Source: Cellulomonas chitinilytica
GTDB lineage: Bacteria > Actinomycetota > Actinomycetes > Actinomycetales > Cellulomonadaceae
Length of the DNA stretch: 64,000 bases
Assembly (NCBI RefSeq): GCF_016862675.1
Contig: NZ_BONK01000016.1
Coordinates: 1 to 64,000, forward strand
Reading direction: 5' to 3'
Position 1 is the first letter of the stretch; each line of letters opens with the position of its first letter. Shown one piece after another: positions 14,457-53,484 of this stretch. The notes beneath the pieces are model-generated. The model saw nothing but the letters and a program-made list of their open reading frames with translations. It did no database searches and was not told where the DNA came from. Position numbers and translations under genes: made by a program.

Positions 14457-15233
14457 TCACACCTCGTCGGGCAGCGCCTTGCGGATGACGATCCGGGTCC
14501 ACGCGCCCACGTACAGGCGGTCGCCGTCCTGCAGCTCGCGCCGCTGACCGGGCGGGATCGGCTGCGTCGGGATCGGGTCGCCGACCCGGCTGACGTACGT
14601 GCCGTTCGACGAGTCGAGGTCCTCGACCCACCAGCGCTGGCCGTCCGTGTTCAGCTGGCACTGCCGGCGCGACACGCCCGAGTCCGCCCCGCAGTCGACC
14701 TTCGGGTGGATGTTGCGCGACACCGACGGGCGTCCGACCAGCACGCTGCGCTCACGCAGCGGCACCAGCGCGGGCGGGCCCGGCGACGGGATGGGGTCCT
14801 CCGGCTTCTGCACCGCGTACCAGTCGGGGTCGACCCAGATCTCCGCGACCCACTGGTCCGGGCCCGCCGGGGGCGGGGTGTCGAGCCCGGCGGGCGCGGG
14901 GACCACCGGGGTCGGGGCCGACTGCGCCGGGCCCGGAGACGGCGCGGCGACGGCCGGCGTCGGGGTTGACGACGGTGTGGCGGGCGGTGTGGCGGGCGTG
15001 GCGGGCGGGGGCGCAGGCACCGGGAGCGACCCCGTCGTGAAGTCGTACCCGCAGTTCTCGCAGAACAGCGCGCCCGCGGCGGCGGGAGCCCCGCAGTGCG
15101 CGCACGTGCTCGGTGCCGACGCCGCCGGCGTCGCGACCGGTGCCGGCGCCGCGGCGTCGAGCGGTGCACCGCACACGTCGCAGTAGTCGGTCGCCTGCGA
15201 CGTGTGGCCCTGCGGGCAGACGACCGGGCTCAT
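14457..15233 (-). CDS. FHA domain protein with zinc-ribbon N-terminus
   Basis: 258 residues, cytosolic. Residues 1-62 hold two zinc-ribbon-like units (Cys 6, 18, 21 and Cys 44, 47, 58, 61). A Pro/Ala/Thr linker of about 60 residues follows. A C-terminal FHA domain (about 160-255) has GRPS at 167-170, SRR at 188-190 and DSSNGTYV near 207-214, the phosphothreonine-binding signature. It is the last gene of the PknG cluster, overlapping the VWA stop (ATGA). It lacks the short ET-type N-terminus of GarA, so it is not that PknG substrate; a reader of phosphorylated cluster members is the simplest guess. Confidence 0.85.
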   Translation of the reverse strand: MSPVVCPQGHTSQATDYCDVCGAPLDAAAPAPVATPAASAPSTCAHCGAPAAAGALFCENCGYDFTTGSLPVPAPPPATPATPPATPSSTPTPAVAAPSPGPAQSAPTPVVPAPAGLDTPPPAGPDQWVAEIWVDPDWYAVQKPEDPIPSPGPPALVPLRERSVLVGRPSVSRNIHPKVDCGADSGVSRRQCQLNTDGQRWWVEDLDSSNGTYVSRVGDPIPTQPIPPGQRRELQDGDRLYVGAWTRIVIRKALPDEV

Positions 15234-16507
15234 CGGCGCACCCGCGTGGTCTTCGTCGAGGCGGTGTCCAGCGCCATCTCGTCGAGCTTGGCGGCGTTCC
15301 GCTTGAGCCGGACCGTGCCCTTCTCCTCGTCGTCGATCTCCACCACGCGCCGCAGCCGCGACGTCGCCTCCTCGTTGCCCGTCTCCGCCGCGAGCTGGAC
15401 GGCGCGGCCCAGCTTGACCGTCGCCGTCGCCTCGTCCCCCGCGGCCTTCGCGGCCAGCCCCTCCTGGATGACAGACGCGAGCTCGGCCTGGCCTGTGTAG
15501 TGGGCCACCTCGGGGCTGATGCGCGCCGAGAGCGCGTCGTCGTCCGTCCACCGGGCCTTGACCAGCCCCGACGTGAGGACCTCTCCCCCGACGGCGACCT
15601 GCACGCGCGCCGCGAGCTGCTCCGAGCCGACCGGCTTCGACGCGACCCGGACCGCCACGTGGTAGTCGCGGGACTCGTCGCCCCACGACCCCGTCGCGTA
15701 CGCGCCCGTGAGCGCGTTGACCTCCGTCCGACGCGTCGTGAGGTCCTCGACGGTCGGGGCCACCTGGCGCACGAACAGGACCTGCGCCCCCTGCGGGGCC
15801 CACACGCGCAGCTCGGCCGAGGCCACACCGCGCGCCATCGACGTCTGGACGATCCGGCGGAAGTCCTCGGCGATGTCGGCCGGGTCCGCGATCAGGTCGA
15901 CGGTGCCGAGCAGCGCCGTCGAGATCTCCCGCAGCTCGTCGACCTCCCAGTGCTCGCCGACGCCGCGCGCGTCGCACTGGAAGTGCCCGGTGAGGTCCCG
16001 GACCGCGCGCGACAGCTCGGTGCGCGCCTCCGACTCGTTCTTCCCGTCCGTGAGGAGCACGGCGTGACGCTGCGTCGCCTGCGGGACGGTCGCGAAGATG
16101 ATGTCCGCCAGCCGCAGCCACGTGCTCATCGCCGTGCCGCCCGACGACCGGATGCCCGAGATCGCCTGCTTCGCGTCGGACCGCGCCCGGTCGTCCATCG
16201 GCACCATCGCGACCGCCCAGTTCGGCAGCGGGAACACCCGCTGCGCGACGTGGCTGCCGCCGATCACCGCGAAGAACGTGCCGTCGGGGATCTGGTCGAT
16301 CGCGACCTGGGCGGCGTGCTTCGCGGCGGCGAGGTTCGCGCCCTCCATCGAGCCCGACGTGTCGATGATGACGATCTCCGCGACGCCACCCTGGGCCGCC
16401 CCCGCGGGACCCGCTCCGGCCGCGGTGACCGTGACGATCGCGTGCACGTCCGTGGCACCGTCGGACAGGAACTCGTTCTGGAAGACCTCGGTGCGGAACT
16501 CGGCCAC
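15230..16507 (-). CDS. VWA domain protein
   Basis: 425 residues, GTG start, no signal peptide or membrane segment. The von Willebrand A domain starts near residue 43: the MIDAS motif DTSGS is at 49-53, with a later Thr in GGTAMS and Asp in LLTDGKNES. The second half (about 240-425) is a beta-rich part followed by a helical acidic tail. Such intracellular VWA proteins act as metal-dependent protein-docking scaffolds. It lies between the phosphatase (17-nt gap) and the FHA protein (ATGA overlap). Confidence 0.85.
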   Translation of the reverse strand: MAEFRTEVFQNEFLSDGATDVHAIVTVTAAGAGPAGAAQGGVAEIVIIDTSGSMEGANLAAAKHAAQVAIDQIPDGTFFAVIGGSHVAQRVFPLPNWAVAMVPMDDRARSDAKQAISGIRSSGGTAMSTWLRLADIIFATVPQATQRHAVLLTDGKNESEARTELSRAVRDLTGHFQCDARGVGEHWEVDELREISTALLGTVDLIADPADIAEDFRRIVQTSMARGVASAELRVWAPQGAQVLFVRQVAPTVEDLTTRRTEVNALTGAYATGSWGDESRDYHVAVRVASKPVGSEQLAARVQVAVGGEVLTSGLVKARWTDDDALSARISPEVAHYTGQAELASVIQEGLAAKAAGDEATATVKLGRAVQLAAETGNEEATSRLRRVVEIDDEEKGTVRLKRNAAKLDEMALDTASTKTTRVRR

Positions 16508-16524
16508 GGTGGCTCCTTCGTCGA

Positions 16525-17658
16525 TCAGCGGTCGGTCGGGTCGAGGTCGGGGCGCGAGGCGGGCGGCGGTGCGGCCTCGACGTTTGCGGCGGACCCGGTC
16601 GGCTCCGCCTGGAGGCTATCGCCCGTCGGGCGCGCCAGCGCCACGGTGATGTTGTCGTGGCCGCCCTGGGCGTTCGCCCACGTCACGAGCTCTGCCGCGA
16701 TCGCGTCGGGCGCCGACCCGACCCTCGCCTCGACGTCCCGGACGAGGGCGTCGAGGTCGGCCGCCTCCGAGCAGTAGTTCCACAGGCCGTCCGAGCAGAC
16801 CAGCACCCAGCCGGGACCCTGGGTCCGGGTCGCCGTGGTCTGCGGGACGACGTCGGGGGCGTCCGGCCCGAGCCACCGGGTGATCGCGTGCGCCGTCGGC
16901 GACGACTCCGCCTGGGCGCGCGGCACCCCGCGGGCGATCAGCTCGTTCGCCCCGGAGTCGTCCGCGCTGAGCTGCCGGGGCGTGCCTGCGTCGGGCAGCC
17001 AGTACGTCCGGGAGTCGCCGAGCCAGCCGGTCACGACGAGGGGTCCGTCGACCACGGCGGCGACGAACGTGCACGAGGGCGGCTCGGCCCGTCCCGCCCG
17101 GTCGCCGACCGCACCGCGGATCGCCGCGTCCGCCGCGGCGGCGGCGTCGACGAGGAGGGCCGACCACGCCGCCGGGCGGGCCGCCTCGGTGACGGTCGCG
17201 GGCACCGCCCCGGCCGCCAGGACGTCCCGGGCGGCGCGGGCCGCGGCGAGGCTGGCGAGGTCGGAGTCCGGTGCGCTCGAGACGCCGTCGCACACGACGA
17301 GCGCCGTGAGCGCACCGTCGGCGTGCAGCGCCATCGCGTCCTCGTTCCGGGCGTGCCGCCGCCCGCGGTCGCACACGCCGCCGACGTGCGGGGCCGGGCG
17401 CTCGGACCAGTGGTCACGCTCGCTCACCGCGAGCGCCCCGCACTGCTCGCAGTACCCGTCGGCCGCGACGACCCCGCCGCACGAGCGGCACGGGGCGCCC
17501 GCACCGTCGGCGGCGGAAGGCTCGGGCGACGGCTGGGGCGACGGCTCGGGCGACGGTTCGGCGGGCGCCGCAGGTGCGACGAGCGCGGCACCGCACCCCT
17601 CGCAGAACCGGTCGGAGTCGTGCACCGCGGCACCGCAGGCCGGGCACGCCACGCTCAC
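16525..17658 (-). CDS. PP2C-type Ser/Thr phosphatase with zinc-ribbon N-terminus
   Basis: 377 residues. Two zinc-ribbon-like units (CPAC...CEGC at 5-22 and CRSC...CEQC), separated by a Pro-rich linker of SPEPSPQP type, precede a PPM/PP2C catalytic domain. Metal-binding and catalytic motifs are RHARNEDA, VVCDGVSSAPDSD, GWLGDSRTYW, LVCSDGLWNY and GGHDNITVAL. No membrane segment is seen. I chose GTG 17658, which overlaps the kinase stop (GTGA), over GTG 17670. It is the natural antagonist of the PknG-like kinase just upstream. Confidence 0.93.
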   Translation of the reverse strand: MSVACPACGAAVHDSDRFCEGCGAALVAPAAPAEPSPEPSPQPSPEPSAADGAGAPCRSCGGVVAADGYCEQCGALAVSERDHWSERPAPHVGGVCDRGRRHARNEDAMALHADGALTALVVCDGVSSAPDSDLASLAAARAARDVLAAGAVPATVTEAARPAAWSALLVDAAAAADAAIRGAVGDRAGRAEPPSCTFVAAVVDGPLVVTGWLGDSRTYWLPDAGTPRQLSADDSGANELIARGVPRAQAESSPTAHAITRWLGPDAPDVVPQTTATRTQGPGWVLVCSDGLWNYCSEAADLDALVRDVEARVGSAPDAIAAELVTWANAQGGHDNITVALARPTGDSLQAEPTGSAANVEAAPPPASRPDLDPTDR

Positions 17659-19964
17659 CACGTGGTCCACCGGCGCACCTCGTTCGCGCGGTCGACGAGG
17701 CCGATCCGCTCGTCGGGCGACTCGGTGAGGTCGGCGAGACGACGGAACGCGTCCTCGAGCGCGTCCCGCAGCTCGGGCTCACGTGCGGGCACGCCGTCGA
17801 TCGTCACGGTCGTGGACGGCCCTTGCGTCAGCACCGTGCCGAGCGCCGAACCGAGCACGTCCACCTGCAGCACGGCCCGGTCGCGCGGCGCGATCGTCAC
17901 CGCCTGCACGCTGCGCAGCGCGTCCGCGAGCGCGGCCAGGTCGTCCTTCGACTCGGCCAGGAGCTGCGCACGCAGGACGCGCGCGTCGACGTAGGAGCTG
18001 CGGGTCGGCGTGACCAGGTCGAGCGCCGCGAGGGCGCCGTGCACGTCGCCGCGGGCGCGGCGGATCCGGGCGAGCCCGAACGCGGCGGGCGCGGTGTAGT
18101 TCGCGTCGGAGCGGGCGCACACGACGTACAGCGACTCCGCGATCTCGGGCTCGCCGCTCAGCTCGCACGCCGCGGCGAGGGCCAGCTTCGGGGCCAGCTC
18201 GCCGGGCACCTGCCCGTACACGGCGTTGAACGAGGCGCGGGCCGCGACCGGGTCGCCGGAGGCGAGCTGCGCGAGACCGCCGAGCCACGCCGCACGCCAC
18301 TCCCACGGGTCGTCCGCGAGGATCAGCCCGACCGCGTCCTGCAGCACGTCGGGTCGTGCGGCCTCGATCGCCGCTCCGGCCCGACGCAGGCGCACCTCGA
18401 CGGTGTCCTCGGGCGCGTCCGCCAGCACGGCGAGGCGCTGCACGGGGTCGCTCACGTTGACCCCCGCCAGCCAGCTCGCGGCCGGGTCGTTCGCGTCGAC
18501 GCGCAGCGCGGGCAGCTCGTCCCACGCCAGCGGACGGGTCGCCTGGTCGGACTGCGGCACCTCGAACAGCACGGACGCGGCCGAGTGCAGCGCCGGGCTG
18601 CCGTCGCCGCGGTCGGTCGCGACCACCTCGCGCAGCACGCCGAGGACCTGTGCGCGCAGCTCGTCGACGGTGCCGAACCGGTCCGCCGGGTCGAGCGCGC
18701 ACGCCTTCGCGAGCAGCCGGTAGAAGGAGTCGTACCGCTGGAACACCGGGGTGTCCGCGACGTCGGGCAGCGACGCCGCGTACGTCGTGGTGTTGCCGCG
18801 GAAGTCGAGGACGAGCGTCGCGAGGGTCCGGCCGATCGTGTAGATGTCCGACGCCACCGACGTCCCGACCTCGGGCACCTCGGGCGCCTGGTAGCCGACC
18901 GTGCCGAAGATCGCCGACTCGAGGTCGTCGACCCGCCGCACGCCGCCGAGGTCGATGAGCTTGACGGAGTCGCCCTGCTGGATCATGTTGTCCGGCTTGA
19001 AGTCGCAGAACAGCAGCCCGATGTCGTGCAGGTACGCGAAGGCGGGCAGGATCTCGAGCACGTACGCGAGGGCCTGGTCGACGGGCAGCGGGTCGTTGAC
19101 GCCGCCCGCGGCGTCGCGCCGCTGGCCGAGGATCTGCTTGAGCGACCGGCCCCCGACGAACTCCATGACGGTGTAGCCGGCGCCCTCGTGCATCGCGAAG
19201 TTGTAGATCTCGACGATGAGCGGGTGCTCGACCTCGGCGAGGAACTGCCGCTCGGCGATGGCCGCGGCGTACGCGTCCGGGTCGCCGGAGTTGAGCAGGC
19301 CCTTGAGCACGACCCAGCGGCCGGACACGTTCTGGTCCCGCGCCAGGTAGATCCACCCCAGGCCGCCGTGCGCGAGGCAGCCGACGACCTCGTACTGGCC
19401 GCCGACGAGGTCGCCGGGGGCGAGCCGGGGGGCGAAGTCGAACGCGTTGCCGCACTGCGGGCAGAACCCCTCGGTGCGACCGGGGGCACCGTCGCGCCCG
19501 CGGCCGACCTTCGCCCCGCACGCGGGGCAGAACCGCTTCGCCTCGGGCACGTGCGGGTCGGCCATCACGGAGCCGAGCGGGTCCGGGACGGGGGCGGGCG
19601 GGACCGTCGTCAGGCCCGCGCCGAGCCGGGCGCCGCGCAGCCGTGTCGACGAGGTGCCGACCCGGCGGGTCGTGCTCGACCCGGTCGCGGCGGTGCGGGC
19701 CGACCCGAGCGCCGCGGTCGCGAGCCGGCTCGAGCTGGTGCGGCCGGTGCGCGTCGACTGCTCCGAGCCCGGCTCGGCCGCCGCCGCGCCGCGGTCCGGC
19801 TGCGCCTGCGCGAACCCGGTGCCGAGGAGCGTGGTCGCCGACGCGGGCGCCGACGTGCCCGACGACGGGGCGGTGGGCGCCTGGGGCGACCCGCAGACGT
19901 CGCAGTACCCGTCCTCGTAGGTTCCGGTGCACCCGAGCTCGGTGCAGGAGACGGCGGTCGTCAT
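17655..19964 (-). CDS. pknG: PknG-type Ser/Thr protein kinase
   Basis: 769 residues, close to mycobacterial PknG (about 750). The N-terminus has zinc-ribbon cysteines (CTELGC...CDVC), a Ser/Thr/Arg-rich stretch at 68-115 that could hold autophosphorylation sites, and a rubredoxin-like CPAC...CPQC pair (146-171). The kinase domain spans about 188-450: glycine loop LAHGGLGWIY, Lys in VVLKG (221), catalytic loop CDFKPDN (Asp 321) and DLG (338). The C-terminal half is TPR-like helical repeats. No membrane segment. ATG 19964 overlaps the previous stop. In mycobacteria PknG controls glutamate metabolism with GlnX and GlnH, and both are encoded here. Confidence 0.95.
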   Translation of the reverse strand: MTTAVSCTELGCTGTYEDGYCDVCGSPQAPTAPSSGTSAPASATTLLGTGFAQAQPDRGAAAAEPGSEQSTRTGRTSSSRLATAALGSARTAATGSSTTRRVGTSSTRLRGARLGAGLTTVPPAPVPDPLGSVMADPHVPEAKRFCPACGAKVGRGRDGAPGRTEGFCPQCGNAFDFAPRLAPGDLVGGQYEVVGCLAHGGLGWIYLARDQNVSGRWVVLKGLLNSGDPDAYAAAIAERQFLAEVEHPLIVEIYNFAMHEGAGYTVMEFVGGRSLKQILGQRRDAAGGVNDPLPVDQALAYVLEILPAFAYLHDIGLLFCDFKPDNMIQQGDSVKLIDLGGVRRVDDLESAIFGTVGYQAPEVPEVGTSVASDIYTIGRTLATLVLDFRGNTTTYAASLPDVADTPVFQRYDSFYRLLAKACALDPADRFGTVDELRAQVLGVLREVVATDRGDGSPALHSAASVLFEVPQSDQATRPLAWDELPALRVDANDPAASWLAGVNVSDPVQRLAVLADAPEDTVEVRLRRAGAAIEAARPDVLQDAVGLILADDPWEWRAAWLGGLAQLASGDPVAARASFNAVYGQVPGELAPKLALAAACELSGEPEIAESLYVVCARSDANYTAPAAFGLARIRRARGDVHGALAALDLVTPTRSSYVDARVLRAQLLAESKDDLAALADALRSVQAVTIAPRDRAVLQVDVLGSALGTVLTQGPSTTVTIDGVPAREPELRDALEDAFRRLADLTESPDERIGLVDRANEVRRWTTW

Positions 19965-21088
19965 CGTCGGGTCCCTTCCGGCCCCGGGTGGGGCAGGTCG
20001 CGCGTGAGGTACAGGTACTGCTCGACGAGGTAGCGCGACTGGTCGACGTCGCAGGGAGTCTGCTCGACCGCCGTCCGCGCCTCCTCGTAGCCGGCCCGGA
20101 CGGTCGGCGACGCGCTGCGGCCGTTCACGTCGGCCGCCGCGCGCGCCTGCTCGAGCCGGTAGCGCAGCTCGGCACGCTCGCGCAGCGGTGCGCTGTACGC
20201 GTCGGCGACGGCGTCGAACGCTCGCTGCACCGCGCCGAGCCGGTCCACGTAGGCGTCGAGCTCGGTGCGGGTCTCCGGCGGCGGCCCCAGCCGGGACACG
20301 TCGGGGACGGCGAGCTTCGGCGGCCGGACCACCTCGCGGCGGCACCGGTCGGCCAGGTCGTGCAACGTCGGCTCGCGGGTCTCGAGCGCGTCGAGCGTGG
20401 CCCGGGCCGCTGCGCGGCCGGTGACGAGCGTCCGGCGCTGGGACACCTGCACGATGAGGTCGCGCTCCGCGCGGGCCGTCGCCGCCTCGAGCTCGGCGAG
20501 CGGGCCGCCGACGTCCGCTCCGCGCGCGGCCTGCTCGACGAGCCGACGCTCCCGTTCGCGCAGGGCGGCGACGGCGGCCAGTGGCTCGGCCTCGACGCCG
20601 GCGAGGTCCTCGCACCGCACGAGGGCTGCGCGCAGCTCACGGAGCCGGGCGACGTCGTCGGCGGTGCTCGGGTCGAACGCGAGGCGCACCCGGACCTGGC
20701 CGATCATCGCGTCGCACAGCGTGACGGCCTCGACGAGCGAGACGAGCGCCGAACCGAGACCCGAGTCGAGGCGGCCCCAGACGAGCTGCGACATCTTCTC
20801 GCGGGCCACCGCGTCGGCCCTGCCCGCGTCCCACACCGCCACGAGCTCGTCGGTGCGCGTGCGGATCGCCTGCCACATCGTCAGCGCCAGCACGAGGTCG
20901 GGGGTCAGCGAGTCGCCCGCGCTCGACCCCTGCGCCGCCGTGTCGAGGCGGTCGAGCTCCGCCCTGCGGTCCGTCAGCCACCGCTCGAGGCCCGCCAGGT
21001 ACGCGGCGAGCTCCTGGGTGGGGGCGGCCTCGCCGAGCCGGCCCGGGGCCGACGGTGCCGCCACGCGGCCCGACATGGTGCCGGTCAC
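19961..21088 (-). CDS. Coiled-coil protein of unknown function in pknG cluster
   Basis: 375 residues, almost entirely helical and rich in Ala, Glu, Arg and Leu with heptad-like stretches (for example around LAELEAATARAERDLIVQV). No signal peptide, membrane segment or catalytic motif is visible. The C-terminus has VEQYLYLTRDLPHPG. The GTG start overlaps the glnH stop (GTGA) and its stop overlaps the pknG ATG (ATGA), so it is strictly coupled to both. It could bridge the membrane sensor and the kinase, but that is only position-based inference. Confidence 0.75.
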   Translation of the reverse strand: MTGTMSGRVAAPSAPGRLGEAAPTQELAAYLAGLERWLTDRRAELDRLDTAAQGSSAGDSLTPDLVLALTMWQAIRTRTDELVAVWDAGRADAVAREKMSQLVWGRLDSGLGSALVSLVEAVTLCDAMIGQVRVRLAFDPSTADDVARLRELRAALVRCEDLAGVEAEPLAAVAALRERERRLVEQAARGADVGGPLAELEAATARAERDLIVQVSQRRTLVTGRAAARATLDALETREPTLHDLADRCRREVVRPPKLAVPDVSRLGPPPETRTELDAYVDRLGAVQRAFDAVADAYSAPLRERAELRYRLEQARAAADVNGRSASPTVRAGYEEARTAVEQTPCDVDQSRYLVEQYLYLTRDLPHPGPEGTRR

Positions 21089-22059
21089 GGCGTCCGGCCG
21101 TACACGGACGTCGGAGGCGCCGGTGCGGGCCCGAGCGCGCCGAGCCACCTGTCGTAGAGCGCCGTCCACGTCCCGTCGGTCTTGGCCTGGTCGAGCACCG
21201 CGTTCACGAACCGCACCATGTCGACGTTCGCCGCGGGCACACCGATGCCGTAGGGCTCGGCGCTGAACGCGTCGCCGACGACCTTCGCGTACGGGTCCTG
21301 CGCGACGAAGCCCGCCAGGACCGTGTCGTCGCCCGTGATGGCGTCCACCTTGCCCTGCTGGAAGAGCGCGAGGCAGCCCGTGTGGGTGTCCGCGGCGACC
21401 GCGGTGATGTCGGGGTGCTGCGAGAGCCGGTCGAGCGTCGTCGTGCCCTTCGGGGCGCACACGCGCTGGCCGGCGAGGTCGTCGATGCCTGTCGCGGTGG
21501 AGTCGCGCGTGACGAGCACCTTCTGGCCGGAGCGCAGGTACTCCGCGGAGAAGGCGATCTGCTGCCACCGGTCGCAGTTCATCGTGAACGTGCGTGCGAC
21601 GAGGTCGACCTGGCCGCCCGTGAGCACGTCGAGGCGCTGGCCGGACGTGATGACCCGGAACTGGAGCCGGTCCGGGTCGCCGAACAGCGCGCGGGAGATC
21701 TCGTGCAGCACGTCGATGTCGAAGCCCTCGATCTGGCCCGTGAGCGGGTTCCGCGAGCCCATCAGCAGCGTGTCGGCCGAGACGCCGACCACGAGCGAGC
21801 CGCGATCCTGGATCGCCGCCATGGTGCTGCCGGGCGTGACCGACGTCCCCGCGTCCGGTGCGTAGGACGTCGTCGCGTCGTCGCACTGCGCGGCGGGCGG
21901 GGCGGCCGTCGGCGACGGGGTCTCGCTCGCCGTCGGCGTCGGCGACGGGGCGGTGTCCGTGGGGTCGCAGCCGGCCAGGAGGGCCAGCCCGACGACGGCG
22001 GCCAGGACCGCCGCCGTCCGGCGCGCTCGTCCCGGGTGGCGGGTGCGGGTCGTGGTCAC
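21085..22059 (-). CDS. glnH: GlnH-like substrate-binding lipoprotein
   Basis: 324 residues. Signal sequence with the lipobox LLAGC near residue 31, then a Pro/Thr/Ser linker, then a family 3 extracellular solute-binding fold: GSLVVGVSADTLLMG, GFDIDVLHEISRALFG, VDLVARTFTMNCDRW and PYGIGVPAANVDMVRF. It is expected to sit on the outer face of the membrane. Mycobacterial GlnH binds Asp, Glu and Asn and signals through GlnX to PknG. No ABC permease or ATPase is encoded nearby, supporting a sensor rather than a transport role. Confidence 0.92.
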   Translation of the reverse strand: MTTTRTRHPGRARRTAAVLAAVVGLALLAGCDPTDTAPSPTPTASETPSPTAAPPAAQCDDATTSYAPDAGTSVTPGSTMAAIQDRGSLVVGVSADTLLMGSRNPLTGQIEGFDIDVLHEISRALFGDPDRLQFRVITSGQRLDVLTGGQVDLVARTFTMNCDRWQQIAFSAEYLRSGQKVLVTRDSTATGIDDLAGQRVCAPKGTTTLDRLSQHPDITAVAADTHTGCLALFQQGKVDAITGDDTVLAGFVAQDPYAKVVGDAFSAEPYGIGVPAANVDMVRFVNAVLDQAKTDGTWTALYDRWLGALGPAPAPPTSVYGRTP

Positions 22060-23381
22060 CGGTACTCCTCCAGTCGCCTGCCGATACCGCGCCACCCGAG
22101 GACCGCCGCGGCGACGCCCGCGAGGAGCGCGAGCCAGCCGAGCAGCACCACCGCGCCACCCGCGTCGCCCAACGCGTCCTGGGTGGCCGTGACGTCCTCG
22201 TCGACCGAGGACGTGGCCGCGGCCGTCAGCGCGTCGAACGCGATCCGCGGCTCGCCCTGCGGGTCGACGGCGAGCGCCACCGCGCCGTCCCAGTCCCCGG
22301 CGTCGTCCAGGGCCCTGATCTGCGCGTGCGCGCCGACCCACGTCGCGAGCTGCTGGCCGAGGTCGCCGGCGGGCGCGGGCGCGCCGTCGAGCACCTGCGC
22401 CGCCTGGTCCGTCTCGGCGACGAACGTCTCCTCGAACGCCTGCCCGGATCCGCGCTTGATGAGGGTGAACGACTCCATCGACTTCGCGTCCGTCGCGAGC
22501 GACAGCGCCTGCGAGACGGCCACCGCCCGGGCGTAGGGGCCGTCGCGGACGTCGTCCGCCCGGACGCCGGCGCGGCCGAGGACGACGGCGCCGCCGACCG
22601 TGGCGACGACCAGCACGACGGTCGCGACGACCAGGCCGGCGTTGAGCCGCCGGTGCGTCCGCCGGGCCAGCCACACCTGCACGACGACGAGCACGACGAG
22701 GGCCAGCACGCACAGCGCGAGCACCCACAGCACCTGCGACACCGCCGCGAACGACCCGTCGACGCGGTGCTCGTTGTCCGCCACGAGGCCGTCCAGCGCG
22801 GGCAGCACCTCGGACCGCAGCACCGACGACGCCTGGTCGAGGTAGGCCGCGCCGACCGGGAACCCCTGCCGGTTGTTGGCCCGCGCCTGCTCGACGAGGC
22901 CGGTGTACGTCGTCAGCCCCGCGGTGGCCGTGCCGAGGAGGTCGGCGTCGGAGGAGTTCGAGCCGGCGAGGCCGGCCAGCCCCTGCGACGCCTCGGCGAT
23001 CGCGGTGCTGTAGCGGACGCGCTGCTCGACCGGCTCGAGACCGCCCACGAGGAACGCGTTGGTCGCGGCGGCGTCCGCCGTGACGAGGTCGTTGCGCACC
23101 TCGCGGACCCCGATGAGCTGCGCCGTGTCGGCCCGGGCGGCGTCGAGCGCCGCGGCCTGCGCCAGGCCCGCGGCGAGACCCGCGGCCCCCGCGACCAGGG
23201 CCGCGACGACGACGAGGACGCCCGCGACGCGCAGCTTCCCGGGCGTCCGGCGCAGCGCGGCCCGCAGGCCGTGCGACGCCGGCGCCGGGTCTCCTGGCGC
23301 GGCGGCCGCCGCGACCGCCGGCGTGACCGGCGCGGGACCCGTGCGGCCCGTCGCGCTGCCGGGTGAGACGAGCGTCGTCAC
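22056..23381 (-). CDS. glnX: GlnX-like membrane sensor protein
   Basis: 441 residues. Hydrophobic segments near 52-74, 218-240 and 247-270 and at the C-terminus (about 410-431) predict four membrane helices, with two helical domains of about 145 residues outside the membrane. This matches mycobacterial GlnX, which passes the GlnH signal to PknG. The N-terminal 50 residues are cytosolic and disordered-looking. The GTG start overlaps the AAA gene stop and its stop overlaps glnH (both GTGA). Identification rests on topology and the glnH-pknG neighbourhood. Confidence 0.85.
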   Translation of the reverse strand: MTTLVSPGSATGRTGPAPVTPAVAAAAAPGDPAPASHGLRAALRRTPGKLRVAGVLVVVAALVAGAAGLAAGLAQAAALDAARADTAQLIGVREVRNDLVTADAAATNAFLVGGLEPVEQRVRYSTAIAEASQGLAGLAGSNSSDADLLGTATAGLTTYTGLVEQARANNRQGFPVGAAYLDQASSVLRSEVLPALDGLVADNEHRVDGSFAAVSQVLWVLALCVLALVVLVVVQVWLARRTHRRLNAGLVVATVVLVVATVGGAVVLGRAGVRADDVRDGPYARAVAVSQALSLATDAKSMESFTLIKRGSGQAFEETFVAETDQAAQVLDGAPAPAGDLGQQLATWVGAHAQIRALDDAGDWDGAVALAVDPQGEPRIAFDALTAAATSSVDEDVTATQDALGDAGGAVVLLGWLALLAGVAAAVLGWRGIGRRLEEYR

Positions 23382-24829
23382 GCGGACTCCTCGAGGTGGT
23401 CGGGGGCGGCCGGGTCGTCGGCCGCCGGGTCGTCGTCCGCAGCGGCGTCGTCCGCCGAGGCGACGAGGTCGTCGGGCAGCAGCACGCGCAGCTGCTCGAG
23501 GCTGGGCTCGTCGACGTCGCGCAGCCGCCACGCGTGCCGGGTGATGGCCTGGTCGAGCACGTTGCGGGCGTACCGGCCGTTGCCGAAGCCCTCGTCGCGG
23601 ACCTCGGCGGACGCGAGCCGCTCGAACTGCGCGAGGCACTCGGGCGACGGCGTGAAGTCCGCCTTGCGCGCGGTGCGGTCGAAGATCTCCCGGAGCTCGG
23701 CGTCCGTGTAGTCGTCGAACTCGAGCGTCGTCGCGAACCGGCTCTCCAGGCCCGGGTTGACGGCGAGGAACCGCGCCATCGGCCCGGGGTACCCCGCGAC
23801 GACGACCACCAGGTCGTCGCGGTGGTCCTCCATGTCCTTGACGAGCGTGGTCACGGCCTCCTCGCCGTACTGGTCCTCCGCCAGCCCGTACGCCTCGTCG
23901 ACGAACAGGACCCCTCCGACGGCCGACGCGACGACGGCCGACGTCTTCTCGGCGGTCTGCCCGAGGTACCCCGCGACGAGCTCCGAGCGGTCCACCTCGA
24001 CGAGGTGCCCCTTGCTCAGCAGCCCGAGCGCGCGGTACAGCCCCGCGACGAGGCGCGCGACCGTCGTCTTGCCCGTGCCGGGGTTCCCGAGGAACACGAG
24101 GTGCCGGGTGATCGTCGGCGTCGCGAGCCCCGCGTCCTGGCGGAGCTTGGCGACGCGCAGCAGCTGCGCCTGCCGCCGGACCTCGTGCTTGACGCGCTCG
24201 AGGCCGACGAGCGCGTCGAGCTCCGCGAGCAGCTCGTCGAGCGTGGGCGCGGGTGCCTCGGTCCCGGTGGTGGCCGCTGCGGTCGCCGGCTCCGCGGTCG
24301 CGAGCTCACCCGGGCCTGCGGTCCGGCCCGCCGGCAGCCCGGCGGTCGTGGCCGCGCCGTCCGGGGACCACCGGTCGCCGTGCTCGGGTCCCGGCACGGT
24401 GGACGGTCGCGGCGGCCCGGCCTGCAGCACGGCGTCGCGCTGCACCGCCGCGGTCGCCGACGCGCGCGCGATGACGTCGATCGACGCCGGACCCAGGTCG
24501 CAGGCGGCGGCGACCACCCGGACCAGCGCCGCCGCGTAGCCGCCGGCGTGCGCCGACCCGTCAGCGACGAGCGCCGCGAGGGACGCGGTCGGCGTCGACC
24601 GCCACCGGCGCGCGACGGCGGCCTGCTCGAAGAACCGGTCGAGCGCGGGTCCGGGCACCCCGACCGCCGCGCTCCACGCCGCCGGCGCACCCGGCACCGC
24701 CTCCGCGACCGCCGCGGCGAGGGCGGCCCCCTCGTCGCGGGCCGCCGCGGGATCGAGGCCCGCCGCCGTCGCGGCCTCCTGGACCGCGTCGAGCGCCGCG
24801 CGCAGCTCGTCGACCGGGCCCACGCTCAC
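23378..24829 (-). CDS. CbbX/SpoVK-like AAA+ ATPase
   Basis: 483 residues. A helical N-terminal ~190 residues and a Pro/Ala linker precede one AAA+ module: GNPGTGKTT (Walker A, from 248), VLFVDEAYGLAE (Walker B), VVVAGYPGPMARFL (sensor 1 region), and GFGNGRYARNVLDQAI (sensor 2 arginines). This layout is that of CbbX/SpoVK-type remodelling ATPases, not of proteases. The acidic C-terminus is Asp/Ala-rich. GTG 24829 overlaps the preceding stop. The substrate is unknown; a partner in the cluster is likely. Confidence 0.88.
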   Translation of the reverse strand: MSVGPVDELRAALDAVQEAATAAGLDPAAARDEGAALAAAVAEAVPGAPAAWSAAVGVPGPALDRFFEQAAVARRWRSTPTASLAALVADGSAHAGGYAAALVRVVAAACDLGPASIDVIARASATAAVQRDAVLQAGPPRPSTVPGPEHGDRWSPDGAATTAGLPAGRTAGPGELATAEPATAAATTGTEAPAPTLDELLAELDALVGLERVKHEVRRQAQLLRVAKLRQDAGLATPTITRHLVFLGNPGTGKTTVARLVAGLYRALGLLSKGHLVEVDRSELVAGYLGQTAEKTSAVVASAVGGVLFVDEAYGLAEDQYGEEAVTTLVKDMEDHRDDLVVVVAGYPGPMARFLAVNPGLESRFATTLEFDDYTDAELREIFDRTARKADFTPSPECLAQFERLASAEVRDEGFGNGRYARNVLDQAITRHAWRLRDVDEPSLEQLRVLLPDDLVASADDAAADDDPAADDPAAPDHLEESA

Positions 24830-25365
24830 AGCGCCTCCCCCGTGACCGCGCCCGGACCGACCTCCGGTGCGATCGCCAACGCCGACCCGCCGAACTTCTC
24901 GGCGAGGAACTGCCCGTGCGCGACGAGCGCCTGCGCGTCCTCCCGTGACACCGCGTCGGAGATCTTGTCGAGGGTCACACCGAGCAGGTCGAGCTGGTCG
25001 CACAGGACCATGAGCGACGTCTTTCCGTGCGACACGACGCGCCGGTCCGCGAACTCCCGCGGCAGCCGCAGGTACCCGCCCACAGCCTCCGGCAGGTAGC
25101 TGGTCGCGGTCGCGACGACGGTGTGCGCCTGCCGCGAGCCCACGCCGAACCGGTCGAGGCGCGGCGCCATCTCCTCGATGGTGCGCGCGATGCCGTGCAC
25201 GCGGGCCACCACCGCCGCGGGCACGCGACCGGCGACCTGCTGCTCCACGGTCCGCACCGACGCGAGGATCTCCGCGGACGTCGGCGGGGCGGGCCGCGCG
25301 GTCGTGAGCTCGGCCGGACGCGGCCGGCCCCGCAGGCGGTCCACGACGTCCCCGAACCAGCTCAT
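24826..25365 (-). CDS. Protein of unknown function in TelA-PknG cluster
   Basis: 179 residues, ATG start. No signal peptide or membrane helix. The N-terminal 30 residues are basic and Pro-rich; the rest looks helical (for example ILASVRTVEQQVAG and LMVLCDQLDLLGVTLDKI). No motif I can name. It starts 15 nt after the telA stop and ends inside the AAA gene start (GTGA), so it is coupled to the ATPase and may be its adaptor. That role is inferred from position only. Confidence 0.72.
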   Translation of the reverse strand: MSWFGDVVDRLRGRPRPAELTTARPAPPTSAEILASVRTVEQQVAGRVPAAVVARVHGIARTIEEMAPRLDRFGVGSRQAHTVVATATSYLPEAVGGYLRLPREFADRRVVSHGKTSLMVLCDQLDLLGVTLDKISDAVSREDAQALVAHGQFLAEKFGGSALAIAPEVGPGAVTGEAL

Positions 25366-25380
25366 CTGGATCCCGACCCG

Positions 25381-26610
25381 TCAGCTGCCGCCGAGGTCGA
25401 GCGAGCTCGACGACGACAGCCCCTCGCGCAGAGGGGTGTCCGTGCGCGAGACGCGGTCGAGGTAGGCCTGCGCCTTCTCCGTCTCGGTCTGCAGGACGCC
25501 GACGGTCTGCGCCATCGAGTCGAGGGCCTTGACCTTGAACTCGTCGATGGACTCCATGGTCGCGTAGATGTCGGCGAAGGCCTGCTGCAGCTGGGGCAGA
25601 CCGAGCGTCGACGACGCCGCCTGCTGCTGGATGCTCGCCGACTGGTCCTTGAGCATCTTGGACGTCGACGCGATCATGCCCGAGGTCGTCGTGTTGAGGG
25701 CCGTGATCTGGTCGAGCACGAGCTTCTGGTTGTTGAGCGCCTGCGCGACGAGCACGGCGGTGCGCAGCGCGGAGACCGTGGTGGTCGTCGCGCGGTCGAC
25801 GCCCTTGATGAGCTCGATGTTGTTCTTCAGGATGATGTCGACCGCGAGGTACCCCTGGATCGACACGACGAGCTGCGTGAGCAGGTCCTGGTGCTTCTGG
25901 CGGACGTAGAACAGGACGTCCTTGCGCAGCGAGTCGGCCCGGGTCGGGTCGGACACCTCGATCTCGGCGATCTTCGCGGACAGCTGCGTGTCGAGGTGCT
26001 CCGCGACGTACACGTACTGGTTCAGGCGGCCCATGGTCTCCCACAGGCGCTGCTTCTCGAGGTTGAGCGCCGCGTTGTCCTTGCGCAGCTCGTCCTGCCC
26101 GTCGTACAGCGCCCGCACGATGGCGTCGAGCTGCGCCTGCGCGCTCTCGTACCGGCGGAAGTAGTCGGTGAGCTGCTGGCCGAACGGGATGAACCCGAGG
26201 AGCTTGCGGCCGACGCTCGCCTCGGCGGGATCGAGCTCCTCGACCGTGCGGCGCAGGTCGAGCAGGGACCGGCTCACCTGCGACGTCCCGGACACGCCGC
26301 CCTCACGCAGCTCGCGCACGGGGACCTGCAGGAGCCGGTTCGACGAGTCCGCGGCGGTGCGGATGTCAGCCTCGCCCATGAGGCGGACGTCGTCGGCCTT
26401 CGCGGCGAGCTCGGGCGAGCCGGGCTGGACGGCGAGCAGGCCGTCGACGTACGCCGAGACCTTGGCGTTCAGACCGGGCAGCGCCGCCTCGTCGATCCGC
26501 GGGGCCATCGCCGGGGCCTGCGTCGCGGCGACCGGCTGCGCCGGTGCGGGCGGCTCCAGCGCGAACGCCGACTGCGCCGCCGGGGGTGTCAGTGGGGTCG
26601 CGTCGGTCAT
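25381..26610 (-). CDS. telA: TelA family protein (toxic anion resistance)
   Basis: 409 residues, cytosolic, mostly alpha-helical. The core matches the TelA/YceG-like family: LLGFIPFGQQLTDYFRRYESAQ, GQDELRKDNAALNLEKQRLWE and GVDRATTTTVSALRTAVLVAQAL. Family members are linked to tellurite resistance and to envelope stress, but their biochemistry is not settled. It has a strong GGAGG ribosome site and heads the whole minus-strand cluster, so the promoter must lie in 26611-26893. Its position with VWA, PP2C and kinase genes suggests signalling rather than plain metal resistance (inference). Confidence 0.88.
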   Translation of the reverse strand: MTDATPLTPPAAQSAFALEPPAPAQPVAATQAPAMAPRIDEAALPGLNAKVSAYVDGLLAVQPGSPELAAKADDVRLMGEADIRTAADSSNRLLQVPVRELREGGVSGTSQVSRSLLDLRRTVEELDPAEASVGRKLLGFIPFGQQLTDYFRRYESAQAQLDAIVRALYDGQDELRKDNAALNLEKQRLWETMGRLNQYVYVAEHLDTQLSAKIAEIEVSDPTRADSLRKDVLFYVRQKHQDLLTQLVVSIQGYLAVDIILKNNIELIKGVDRATTTTVSALRTAVLVAQALNNQKLVLDQITALNTTTSGMIASTSKMLKDQSASIQQQAASSTLGLPQLQQAFADIYATMESIDEFKVKALDSMAQTVGVLQTETEKAQAYLDRVSRTDTPLREGLSSSSSLDLGGS

Positions 26611-29134: not shown

Positions 29135-32100
29135 TCAGCGGGTGCTGACCGGCCTGCTCGTGCTCGGCGACACGTTCGCCGGGTCGTCCGGCACGAACGT
29201 GGCCGTGTACGTGTGGCGGCCGGACGGCACGGTGCCGATGGCGATCCCGAGCACCACGTCGAGCGACTTCACGACGGTGCCGCCCTCACGGATCTCGACC
29301 TTCCCGGACGGGAACCTCCCGTTGTCGGTCGAGACGGTCGCGACGGCGAAGGACGGGACGAACAGGAAGCCGGGGGTCACCGTCAGGCTCGTCCTGGTGG
29401 TGACCTTGTCCACCACGACCGTCACCGCCTCGGACTGCGAGCCGGTGACCGTGTCGTCCCCGGCGAACCGTGCGACGACCTCGTAGGTGCCCGCGGGCGT
29501 CGAGGCGGGCAGGGTCAGCGTGGCCTTGCCCTTGCTCAGCGTCGCCGTCCCCAGGACCGTATCGCCGGCCACGAACTCGACGGGACCGGAGACCGGCACC
29601 GTCGACGTGACCGTCGCCTTGAGCTTGACCTTCGACGTCCCGTACACCTGGCGCGCGGGCGCCGCGGTGAGGGTCGTGGTCGACGCCGGGAGCGCCTCCT
29701 CGACCGTGAGCGGCAGCGTCACCGTGGTGCCGCTGGGCGCCGCGACGAGCGTGAGGGTGTGCGCTCCCCCGCCGGTGCCCGACGGGACCGTGACGGACAC
29801 GCTCGCGTTCCCGCCGGTCACGGGCGCCGAGCCGATCGACGTGCCGTCGAGCCGCACGTCGAGACTCGTGTTCTGCGGTGACCCGAGGCTCGTGAGGTCG
29901 AGCTTCGTCACCGGGAACGCGAGGGTGTCGCCGGCCGTGACGGACGCCGGCAGCACCGGCACGCCGACGGCCTGGCGGGCGAAGTCCGGCGCGAGGTCCG
30001 GGTGCGCCTGCAGGTACGCGATCCAGCCGTCGCGGTCGACGAGCCCGGAGTCGCGGGCGTCCGTGCCCTCGGTGAAGACCCGGAAGTTGTCGCCGCCCGT
30101 GACGAGGAACGAGAACGTGCCGATGCGGTAGCTCGCCGCCGGGTCGAGCGGCACGCCGTCGACCGTGATGGACGTGATGTGCGACCCCATCGGCGCCGCG
30201 GCGTCGTAGGTGTACGTCACGTTGTCGGACAGCCCGAGCTGCAGGTACGGCCGCGTCGGGATGGTGCCGTCCGGGTTCGTCTGCCACTGCTGCTCGAGCA
30301 TCGTCTTGACCTGGGCGCCCGTGAGCGAGGTCGTCCAGAGGTTGTTGACGAACGGGAGCACCGAGTTCGCCTCGGCCGTGGTCACGACGCCGTCGGGCGC
30401 GTACAGCAGCTCGGCCCGCAGGCCGCCCGGGTTGACGACGCCGATCTGCGCGCCGCCGAGGTTGTCGGGTGCCAGGGTGTCCCGCAGCGCGTTCGCCACG
30501 AGGTCGCCGAGCGTCGACTCGCTCGCCCGGTCGTCCCGGCCGGACGTCGGCGTCGGGCCAGGCCCGACGTAGCCGTCCGCTGTGTACGTGCCGCCGGAGA
30601 ACGCGGTGGTGATGTCGTCGGTGACCGACCCGACGGGGACCGAGCCGACCTCGTTGGCGTACGCGAGGGCGGCGTCGGTGATCCGCTTCACCTCGGCGAC
30701 CCGCGGGTACGTCGCCGCGAGCTGCGCGGCGAAGTCCGCCTCGCTCGTGCCGGCCGGCGGGACGAGCCGCGGGACGTTCGTCTGGGTGTGGGCGAGGACC
30801 TCGTCGGTGCTCGGGTCGTACGTGAGCACGATCTTGCCGATGTTGTCGCCGTACGAGCCCGTCTGCAGGATCGGACGCGTCTTGCCCGGCTGCCCCGGGA
30901 CCGGAGCCTCCCACGCGTACTGCTTGTGGGTGTGCCCGGTGAAGATCGCGTCCACGGCAGGCGAGGTGTCGTTGACGATCTCCGCGAACGCGCCGCCCGC
31001 GGCGACCTCCTCCTCCAGCGTCGCCCCGTCCGGCGTGCCCTCCGACGCGCCCTCGTGGAAAGACGCGACGAGCACGTCGGCCTCGCCGTTGGACGGGTCG
31101 CCGTCGGTCAGCTCGCCCGCGACGCGGTTGACCGCCTCGACGGGGTCGCCGAACGACAGCTCGGTGATGCCGCCGGGGCTGACCAGCGACGGCGTCTCCT
31201 CGGTGACCGCCCCGATGATGCCGACGGTCACGCCGTCCATGTCGATGAGGGCGTACTCCGGGAGCGCCGGGGTGGTGGTCCCCGCCTCGTAGACGTTCGC
31301 CCCGAGGTAGTCCCACGTGGCGTTCGTCCCGCCCGCGATGATGCGGTCACGGAGGTCGGCGAAGCCCTTGTCGAACTCGTGGTTGCCGACCGCCGACGCG
31401 TTGAGCTCGAGCGCGTTGAGCACGTCGATCGTCGGCTGGTCCTGCTGCACCGCGGACGCGAACAGCGACGCGCTCACGTTGTCACCGGCCGACACGAACG
31501 CGACGGGGTCCCCGGCGGCGATCGCTGCTGCCTTCTCCTTCTCGACGGTGCCCGCGAACTTCACGGTGTTGGCGTCGATGCGGCCGTGGAAGTCGTTGAT
31601 GTCGAGCAGCGTGAGGTTCACGGGCACCGCGGCGCCCTTCACGAGGCCGACGACCACCGGGTCGTGGTCCGAGGACCGGTACGGGTCCGCCGCGTAGAAC
31701 AGCGTGCCGTGGTAGTTGTACCGGCTGTACTCGAGCGCGATCGACTCCTCGGCGTTGATCTCCCAGATGTCCGCACCCGTCGCCCGCGCGAGCGCCGGGC
31801 CGTTGAGCAGCACGTGGTCGAGTGACCCGGACAGGCCGCCGAACGAGTAGGAGTACTGGCCCGGCGCGAGGTCCGACCCGGCGTCCGTGTACCCGGCGTC
31901 GTAGAGCAGCCGCAGCGGGTCCTCCTGGGTGTAGGAGTTGAAGTCGCCGACGAGCGCGACCGACTCGACCCCGCCCTGGATGGCCGGGACCCAGTCCCGC
32001 AGCGCGGTGGCCTGCCGGACCCGGGACTCGTTCGACGCGCCCTGGCCGTCGCCGCTGTCGACGTCGCCCGGCCACGGGCCGGCCGATCCCTTCGACTTGA

Positions 32101-34108: not shown

Positions 34109-34200
34109 GTCGAGCTCTCCTTCGTCGGGGGCGCCACACAGCCGCCCCACAGGGCGGCCGTCGTTCACTCTCACGGGTTGCCCGATATGCCGCAACTACT

Positions 34201-50289: not shown

Positions 50290-51468
50290 TCAGGACGTGG
50301 TGCAGCTCAGGTTGCTGATCGCACCGCCGCCGTTGGCGACGAAGCCGAACGACGTCGACGCCCCGCCGCTCAGCAGCCCGTTGTACGCGGCGTTCCGCAC
50401 CGTGATCGACGAGCCGCTCGTGGTGAGCACGCCGTTCCAGAGGTTCTGGATGGTGGTGCCGTTCGCGAGGGTGCCCGTCACGGTCCAGCCGCTCGTCATC
50501 GACGAGCCGGTGTTCTTCACGACGACCGTGCCCTGGAAGCCGGTCGACCAGGTGCTGTCGACCTTGAGCGTGGCGCTGCACCCGGACGAGGGCGGCGGCG
50601 TGAGCGTCGGGGTCGGGGTGGGCGTCGGGGTCGGCGTGGGCGTCGGGGTCGGGGTGGGAGTCGGGGTCGGCGTCGACCCGTCCGTCGTGACCGAGAAGTT
50701 GGTCACTGCGAGGCCGGCGCCGCCGATCCACGGCTCGAAGCCCGCCTGGACGCTCGTGAGGTACCAGCTCGTCGAGCCGTAGCCGCGGCTCACCACGTCG
50801 TTCCAGAACGCGCTCACCGGGAAGCTGATCGAGCTCGTGGGCGTCTGCCGCACGTACGAGATGACGTTCCAGCCGGACGAGCCGTACCAGACGTCCCACG
50901 TGGCACCCGCGACGTTCGCCGTGCCGACCTTCGAGCCGATCGGCTGGATCGACCCGGCGTGGTTGAGCCACACCATGAGCTCGGCGCCGTCGTTCTGCTG
51001 CGTCGTCGTCGTGGGCCGCGACTTGTTGAACCAGATGTCGTAGGCCGCGTCGTACGTGCCGCTGCTCGGGAAGGTCATGCTCACGCTCGTGCTCAGGGTG
51101 CTGAAGCGCGGGTCGCTCGTCTGCAGGCCGTTCGGGCTCAGGATGTTGTTGCTCGTCGTGCACTGGCTGTAGTGGCACCCGTAGTAGACCGCCGGGTACG
51201 ACTTCGGGGCGCCGTTGGTGGCCGTCTGCCCGTCGGCCTGGGTGACCGTGAAGCCGGTCGACGAGACGTCGATGCACTGGGTGGAGCTGGTGCCCCAGCG
51301 GTTGTTCATCACGATGTAGCGGCCGCCCTGGATGGACGCGTTGCCGTACTGCTCGCAGATCACGGGTGCCGCGCTGGCGACCTGCGCGCCGGACAGGCCG
51401 AGCAGGCCCAGGACGGCGGTCAGCAGCGCGGTCAGCACGACCGTGCGGGTGCGGGTTCGGTGAATCAT
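50290..51468 (-). CDS. Secreted GH12 endoglucanase/xyloglucanase with CBM2
   Basis: 392 residues. Signal peptide (cut near VASAA, about 34), a GH12 beta-jelly roll (about 35-262) with nucleophile Glu 163 in AELMVWLNH and acid/base Glu 245 in FEPWIGG, a Pro-Thr repeat linker (265-293), and a C-terminal cellulose-binding CBM2 ([29 protein letters not shown], terminal Cys). Cleaves internal beta-1,4-glucan bonds, possibly xyloglucan. ATG 51468 has an AAGGAG ribosome site. It follows the GH5 gene by 93 nt that contain a strong hairpin. Confidence 0.93.
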
Positions 51469-51512
51469 GGCACTCCTTCGGAGCGGTCGACGACGTGGGA
51501 GGACGGGAAGGT

Positions 51513-51550
51513 CCGTCGGGCGGCGGGCCGTGACGCCCGCCGCCCGACGG
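51513..51550 (-). terminator. Hairpin between GH5 and GH12 genes
   Basis: Perfect 16-bp stem (51513-51528 with 51535-51550), 11 nt past the GH5 stop. Only 44 nt remain to the GH12 start, with no obvious promoter, so it may be a leaky terminator or a mRNA-stabilising structure. Confidence 0.7.
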
Positions 51551-51561
51551 GCGGCCTCAGC

Positions 51562-53238: not shown

Positions 53239-53258
53239 GAACGCTCCTGTGAGGGAGA

Positions 53259-53272
53259 TGGGAGCGCTTCCG
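53259..53272. promoter_or_regulatory. Candidate CebR/CelR operator
   Basis: TGGGAGCGCTTCCG matches the cellulose-regulator operator TGGGAGCGCTCCCA known from Thermobifida and Streptomyces at 12 of 14 positions. It lies 21 nt upstream of the GH5 start. A LacI-type repressor would release it on cellobiose. The remaining 212 nt to the next gene are somewhat less GC-rich around 53340-53395; I see no certain promoter there. Confidence 0.65.
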
Positions 53273-53484
53273 CCTCTCCTGCGAGGCGGGCCGACCAGCA
53301 CGGTGCGCGGCGGGGCGGAAGGCTTGTGGGCAGCGTTCATGCAAGCAGCACTCGAACCGTTCCGACAGGAACTGGAACGTTTAGGCACGTCGAATGGCCC
53401 GACCCCGGGCCTGGTCAGGGCGGCGGGACGACGACGACCCGCGCGGTCACCGGTCGCGCGGTTCGGGTGCGGGTGAGGGGCCGG

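Follow-up and report, generated by a model that had tools for sequence, protein, structure and literature searches.

Why would an actinobacterium keep the kinase PknG and its receptor genes in a single operon with a PP2C phosphatase, an FHA protein, a VWA protein, an AAA+ ATPase and a TelA-family protein? The question is raised by a stretch of 64,000 nucleotides from Cellulomonas chitinilytica (contig NZ_BONK01000016.1, positions 1 to 64,000; here the window), in which ten minus-strand genes at 14457-26610 encode TelA, unk2, AAA+, GlnX, GlnH, CC, PknG, PP2C, VWA and FHA, where unk2 and CC are labels for two family-less proteins. A sequence-only reading had proposed these ten genes in this order, and all were found in place, with Pfam and NCBIfam families assigned to all but unk2 and CC. 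They form one compact operon that, as far as the literature searched goes, extends a known pathway in an undescribed way: papers on the pathway treat a three-gene operon, glnX-glnH-pknG, and the literature also covers TerY-P triads of VWA, PP2C and kinase. The features to which the argument refers are as follows.

25381-26610, minus strand: TelA-family protein of 409 residues, the operon's first gene (PF05816, 300 bits; the single match in the genome)
25393-25401, minus strand: LDL of the C-terminal SLDLG tail of TelA (pattern L[DEN][LIF])
24826-25365, minus strand: unk2, helical, family-less, 179 residues, probable TelA partner (no Pfam or NCBIfam match at E<=0.01)
23378-24829, minus strand: AAA+ ATPase of the SpoVK/EccA/CbbX clade with an N-terminal region of its own (PF00004 and AAA_lid_6)
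22056-23381, minus strand: GlnX, membrane signal transducer (NF058618, 321 bits, cut-off 250)
21085-22059, minus strand: GlnH, solute-binding lipoprotein with a visible lipobox, LLAGC (PF00497, SBP_bac_3)
19961-21088, minus strand: CC, long-helix, family-less, 375 residues (no Pfam or NCBIfam match at E<=0.01)
17655-19964, minus strand: PknG with an extra N-terminal zinc ribbon, a Thr/Arg-rich tail, rubredoxin, kinase and TPR domains (PF16919, PF00069, PF16918)
19617-19757, minus strand: Thr/Ser/Arg-rich N-terminal tail of PknG, residues about 70-116 (homologue comparison)
16525-17658, minus strand: PP2C phosphatase with N-terminal zinc ribbons, alternative start at 17670 (PF13672, DZR)
15230-16507, minus strand: VWA protein with a VWA_3_C domain (PF13768, PF18571)
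15248-15259, minus strand: STKT of the VWA C-terminal tail, residues 417-420 (motif conservation)
14457-15233, minus strand: FHA protein with two zinc ribbons, a long linker and a C-terminal FHA domain (PF00498, DZR)

Adjacent genes overlap by 4 bp at seven of the nine junctions (GTGA at five, ATGA at two), a count that assumes GTG starts at 21088 for CC and at 17658 for PP2C in preference to the longer reading, and the remaining two are separated by 15 bp (TelA-unk2) and 17 bp (PP2C-VWA), much as the near-universal overlaps proposed earlier would have it. A divergent PALP-family gene flanks the operon on one side and a convergent GNAT gene, ending 5 bp away, on the other. The host genome is 4.9 Mb in size; because the G+C content of the window is 74%, the failure of a promoter scan of the operon to find a sigma-70-like promoter carries little information.

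All ten genes, in one gene order and on one strand, were found at 79 loci, a count in which some species appear twice where the order sample and the named VWA scan overlap. These comprise 26 of 41 loci from the order sample (297 genomes of the window's taxonomic order), 49 of 80 loci from the named scan (the best 80 of 583 VWA relatives, hence weighted towards close ones, some of them with TelA truncated at the edge of the retrieved sequence), 4 of 20 from the class sample (matches selected for spread over families) and 0 of 19 from the phylum sample. Loci outside the named scan and the class sample were picked from strong matches, namely GlnX at E<1e-50 and part of the PknG_TPR matches above cut-off. 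In none of these four samples did the ten genes occur in any other order. Ten-gene taxa in the named scan include Cellulomonas, Cellulosimicrobium, Promicromonospora, Agreia, Kineosporia, Kribbella, Nocardioides and Terrabacter, and the ten-gene loci of the class sample (L259-L262) belong to other orders of the class; the closest named comparison cited here, the VWA of Cellulomonas humilata, is 82% identical to that of the window. The sequence-only reading had tied its case to the neighbourhood of PknG homologues outside the genus, and there the linkage is kept across many genera; this synteny rules out a genus-specific cluster as well as a chance assemblage. Occurrence is patchy within the genus itself, where the operon was found in one of six other sampled genomes and no GlnX match in five, and VWA relatives at E<=1e-40 were found in 65 of 296 class genomes.

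The genes also come and go together. Strong GlnX (E<1e-50) was found in 33, CC in 32 and strong unk2 (E<1e-60) in 31 of the 297 order genomes, and 30 of the 32 CC-bearing genomes have strong GlnX. CC and strong unk2 occur jointly in 30 genomes, unk2 alone in 1, CC alone in 2 and neither in 264, these absences being soft, as the genome searches score no more than the first handful of candidates in each. All three exceptional genomes (G305, G329, G451) are assembled in fragments, with completeness of 73-89%. The co-occurrence of CC and unk2 is a gain or loss as a block.

A further feature of the operon is the end of its VWA protein, which follows the pattern DEMxLDTxSTKTxR[VI]. The form STKT[TS]R[VI] is present in 79 of 79 ten-gene VWAs, 5-9 residues from the C-terminus, and STKTxR in 80 of 80 loci of the named scan; at L115-L119 and L125 the tail reads STKTVRV. 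Among 138 VWA homologues scoring above 300 bits, an ST[KR]Tx[RK] tail was found in 126 of 131 that have an FHA gene nearby at the locus vs 2 of 7 that lack one (L207 being scored FHA-less just because its contig, of 4.5 kb, is short), and thinning at 75% identity left 38 of 43 vs 1 of 6 (Fisher 7e-4, uncorrected for phylogeny). The second Thr of STKT has Val or Ile at +3, which is one of the positions that FHA domains read. From these patterns of sequence, the VWA STKT tail is a likely operon-encoded substrate of PknG and a candidate docking site for FHA.

The proteins that would write, read and erase such a mark keep their signatures across the 79 loci. The FHA protein retains its phospho-threonine-binding residues (GRxS in 79, VSR[RK][QH] in 73, SxNGT in 78) and its zinc ribbons (the first in 78, the second in 76), PP2C its motifs (VCDGVS in 70, GDSR in 78, SDGLWNY in 78, GGxDN in 75), VWA its DxSGSM and GGTA (each in 76) and PknG its kinase motifs (VVLKG in 76, D[FL]KP[DE]N in 79, [IV]DLG in 61). 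Like zinc ribbons are common to PknG (77 of 79), PP2C (72 of 79) and FHA (78 of 79). The earlier proposal that a sensor is joined here to a kinase, a phosphatase and a phospho-reader thus appears well founded, the signatures of all three being kept.

The receptor and kinase are homologous to those of the pathway described in M. tuberculosis, M. smegmatis and C. glutamicum. GlnX scores above the cut-off of its family model and, at 132 of 780 bits, below that of the narrower equivalog NF041460; GlnH matches the M. tuberculosis GlnH structure 6h2t (E=1.7e-71); and PknG matches 2pzi (E=1.9e-138) over residues 113-768, with PF16918 at 175 bits. The rubredoxin domain of PknG is preceded by the Thr/Ser/Arg-rich stretch, of which two patterns are kept in 64 and 68 of 79 loci. 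In mycobacterial and corynebacterial PknG the N-terminal region is autophosphorylated and recruits the FHA substrate (PMC8546545, in part), and the tail is a possible segment for autophosphorylation and FHA docking. The gene for CC separates glnH from pknG, so that glnX, glnH and pknG are not consecutive. CC is predicted by AlphaFold2 to be nearly all helical (mean predicted local distance difference test score, pLDDT, 90), and remote homologues (35-42 bits) occur at L115-L119 and L125; an attempt to identify it from its fold gave no PDB match at E<=0.001.

The remaining three genes make up a TelA-unk2-AAA+ module. Within the last 25 residues, 77 of 79 ten-gene TelAs carry L[DEN][LIF], and the narrower L[DEN][LI] is found in 74 of 85 TelAs at PknG-type loci, partial and variant clusters included, vs 0 of 12 away from clusters; Propionibacteriaceae-like TelAs have different C-terminal ends. 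LDL was also considered as a possible peptide code for the whole cluster; the motif is strong in TelA but is present in just 31 of 106 FHA and 6 of 88 unk2 proteins. AlphaFold2 predicts unk2 to be nearly all helical (mean pLDDT 81). Its assignment to a named family failed, with chance-level Pfam matches over 16 members, no NCBIfam family at E<=0.01 and no PDB fold match at E<=0.001. Weak unk2 homologues were also found outside the PknG cluster, and unk2 is probably a member of an unnamed family of TelA partners, because a TelA gene shares the locus in 12 of the 15 such loci fetched (L142-L153, L155, L156 and L161; not in L144, L150 or L155). At some of these loci the unk2-like proteins are present in two or three copies. 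The AAA+ protein retains Walker A (78 of 79), Walker B (78), an aromatic pore loop (77) and NPGLxSRF (79), a motif set as would be expected of a threading ATPase. It had been called CbbX-like, and the CbbX model does match, but only loosely: SpoVK (252 of 423 bits), EccA (232 of 467) and CbbX (217 of 459) all match, each far below its equivalog cut-off. Walker motifs, pore loop and AAA_lid_6 are shared with these ATPases; set against them, the protein here has an N-terminal region without a family match, and no RuBisCO or ESX genes are among the ten.

Beyond the ten-gene form, the cluster varies in extent. TelA-unk2-AAA+ occur in the window's taxonomic order, Kribbella, Nocardioides and Propionibacteriaceae, and in a Pseudonocardiales metagenome-assembled genome (L214) with a weak AAA+ (46 bits); a locus whose record is titled Streptomyces (L211) has all ten genes. 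In another family, with 7-10-Mb genomes that we read as Streptomyces-like (L115-L118, L125), PP2C, VWA, FHA and a remote CC are added, and in a further family (L271-L275) PknG-PP2C-VWA-FHA is followed by weak GlnX and GlnH, with CC detected in four of five. Three genomes have strong GlnX without CC (G404, G437, G571), combining GlnX, GlnH and PknG with PP2C, FHA or both. At seven phylum-sample loci GlnX-GlnH-PknG stand alone, in the mycobacterial-type arrangement. This three-gene form is not universal in that family, because L278 (G830), of the same family and genus, holds seven genes: GlnX, GlnH, a weak CC, PknG, PP2C, VWA and FHA. A retained ancestral state, transfer or a stray contig are all possible sources of the L278 form.

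Certain apparent variants did not hold up or stand apart. VWA-FHA pairs lacking PknG seemed to be present in Rathayibacter, Oerskovia rustica and Enemella; PknG was found in all five genomes (L187, L192, L194, L171, L224), at about 15 kb (L192) and about 10 kb (L224) from VWA, provided that the numbered contig is the named one. At L224, genes that by size and sequence start are Y-family-polymerase-like and DnaE-like lie between PP2C and VWA. Large genomes that read as Streptomyces-like (L121-L123) have a second pair of PknG and VWA, in which VWA carries ST[KR]T followed by an added zinc ribbon; no FHA or PP2C match was found at the locus of this pair. Stand-alone GlnX-like genes occur in large genomes of the order sample (L098, L100-L106), with many neighbours common between loci. 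These eight loci were considered as a clue to function and set aside, as none of the other nine genes is present at any of them.

We propose that the operon works as a Ser/Thr phosphorylation switch that is gated by amino acids and brings its own target, a proposal for which we judge the chances to be even. From the conserved features we infer its ligand, phosphorylation, docking and output as follows. GlnH would bind an extracellular amino acid, and GlnX would relay the signal across the membrane to PknG by way of its TPR domain, steps taken from the published three-gene pathway (PMC6069109 and PMC9769921, both in part); CC would bridge receptor and kinase as a helical linker. PknG would then phosphorylate its own Thr/Arg-rich N-terminal tail and the STKT tail of VWA, most likely at the second Thr. 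The zinc-ribbon FHA protein would bind those phospho-threonines and gather VWA, PknG and PP2C, with PP2C erasing the phosphorylation and so resetting the switch. The loaded VWA-FHA complex would control the AAA+ ATPase, which would act on an assembly of TelA and unk2 lining the membrane on its inner side. The interpretation offered by the sequence-only reading is partly supported: the ten genes are one unit kept well outside the genus, with the signatures of kinase, phosphatase and phospho-reader retained, and the remodelling response to amino-acid sensing that it put forward is a putative output.

Several observations weigh against such a switch. The position of M. tuberculosis Trp232 in the Asp/Glu pocket of GlnH is His in the window, and across 47 GlnH sequences it is His in 26, Trp in 7 and another residue in 14, with the Thr162 position varying as well. 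Of the other pocket residues listed for GlnH (PMC6069109, in part), the positions of Arg147, Thr162, Arg169 and Asp250 are kept in the window, Ser164 is replaced by Thr and Lys161 by Arg. It is uncertain that an amino acid is the ligand of GlnH in this clade. A recognisable GlnH was undetected in eight clusters (L206, L208, L210, L215, L219, L223, L239, L154), all with a weak GlnX (53-186 bits) and with CC, PknG, PP2C, VWA and FHA kept; because the core persists in these clusters, the receptor seems exchangeable, possibly by a swap, around a constant core of kinase and effectors. TelA, unk2 and AAA+ are missing from many clusters outside the window's taxonomic order, so that they are dispensable for the core, and the putative link between AAA+ and TelA is drawn from synteny. 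VWA and FHA occur together without the strict tail at L263, L266, L267, L268 and L271, where the ends range from related tails (STKTVPAPR, SVRTARM) to none, and FHA occurs without VWA at L080 and L092. The basic C-terminal tail of VWA could instead bind nucleic acid or lipid, or be a degron, and an open-access full-text search for the tail peptide found nothing in print. Finally, GarA may remain a target of PknG in genomes that hold both, because the nine GarA relatives compared keep a T-T motif near the N-terminus, cluster present or not.

The last point leads to a rival account, in which the operon serves the known PknG-GarA/2-oxoglutarate pathway, PP2C, VWA and FHA play accessory parts, and TelA-unk2-AAA+ would be a stress module that shares the transcript without a mechanistic link. 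GlnX, GlnH and PknG are indeed genuine members of their families, united in one operon as in the known pathway, whose proposed signalling from receptor to TPR may apply here too; pknG, glnX, glnH and odhI co-occur in the published view (PMC8546545, in part); and the genome of the window has a GarA/OdhI relative of its own (G000:C3; 159 bits, under the 200-bit OdhI equivalog cut-off) with the Thr motif DTTM. All 23 of the other family genomes, however, have such a relative (139-165 bits, same cut-off); six of the 23 have strong GlnX (G348, G404, G519, G551, G561, G571), and four of those six have the ten-gene form (L066, L067, L069, L074). GarA alone fails to explain the cluster, because with the window's own genome included GarA is found in 24 of 24 family genomes and strong GlnX in 7 of 24. 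Nor does hitch-hiking predict a ten-gene order fixed over many genera. In contrast to the known pathway, the operon places CC between glnH and pknG and adds PP2C, VWA, FHA, TelA, unk2 and AAA+, PknG has an extra zinc ribbon and a Thr/Arg tail, GlnH has His for Trp232, and a candidate substrate is encoded in the operon itself. We consider the GarA account unlikely, though it deserves to be taken seriously.

A different precedent lies in the Ter systems, and the operon might be a stress or phage-resistance system of the Ter kind, in which an amino-acid receptor has been added to a TerY-P-like triad, TelA and a SpoVK-type AAA+. The set of writer and eraser is not wholly foreign, TerY-P triads being a known analogue: they bring together VWA, PP2C and a Ser/Thr kinase fused to a zinc ribbon, and in some CoCoNuT operons a SpoVK-family AAA+ lies between VWA genes (PMC11090510, in part). 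TelA and a vWA protein have likewise been proposed as sub-membrane components (PMC7824862, in part), and Ter/TelA chemical-stress operons also join a TelA family member to a small helical partner. In those triads, however, the kinase ribbon is C-terminal, whereas PknG has its ribbon and rubredoxin at the N-terminus, TPR at the C-terminus and no C-terminal ribbon; the operon further differs from them in its PknG-type kinase with TPR, receptor genes, FHA reader and conserved VWA tail, and from Ter/TelA operons in tying to a kinase cascade a TelA whose LDL tail is absent from 12 other TelAs. A Pfam scan of the ten operon proteins found no TerB, TerC or TerD among them, and VWA was scored by Pfam and NCBIfam models alone. 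Anti-phage defence was rejected, as in PADLOC just the kinase, AAA+ and PP2C proteins match, each through models built for other systems. The operon is, besides, syntenic across many genera. A Ter-like system is, in our judgment, distinctly improbable. Still less do we favour the idea that the STKT tail is no phosphosite and instead serves constitutively for docking, or as a degron, with the AAA+ ATPase as one conceivable partner. The tail does lie 5-9 residues from the C-terminus with basic residues following, and because the TelAs of the cluster likewise have a conserved tail, of LDL type, such tails may all serve the ATPase; against this, STKTVRV is kept at L115-L119 and L125, where no AAA+ match was found at the locus, and the tail tracks with the presence of FHA. 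We regard this possibility as very slight.

Among neighbouring genes in the window, a protein of 1686 residues at 29135-34195 combines lamin-tail, endonuclease/exonuclease/phosphatase, metallophosphatase and 5'-nucleotidase domains, and GH12 and GH5 cellulases, each with CBM2, lie next to each other at 50290-53484.

What is new here is the ten-gene extension, the candidate substrate encoded within the operon and the zinc ribbons common to three of its proteins. The supposition that this arrangement was undescribed for PknG has stood up, since searches of open-access full text, with subscription papers, supplements and figures outside their scope, found no description of a PknG operon with TelA, AAA+, PP2C, VWA and FHA. 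Returning to the phosphorylation switch, a broader and more tentative extension, which we think somewhat doubtful, is that PknG in many actinobacteria would have as its main dedicated target the STKT tail of VWA, together with the FHA protein that reads it, in place of GarA. GlnX-GlnH-CC-PknG-PP2C-VWA-FHA would then be a widespread core and the mycobacterial three-gene operon a reduced, GarA-reliant form, while in Micrococcales, Kineosporia and Propionibacteriales the switch would drive remodelling beneath the membrane by AAA+, TelA and unk2 in response to extracellular amino acids. In the literature searched, PknG has so far been studied through GarA/OdhI. The STKT tail offers one short peptide on which the idea is testable; if the idea is true, TelA and a CbbX/SpoVK-like ATPase would be tied to a defined receptor, and part of the biology of PknG would have been missed in many actinobacteria.

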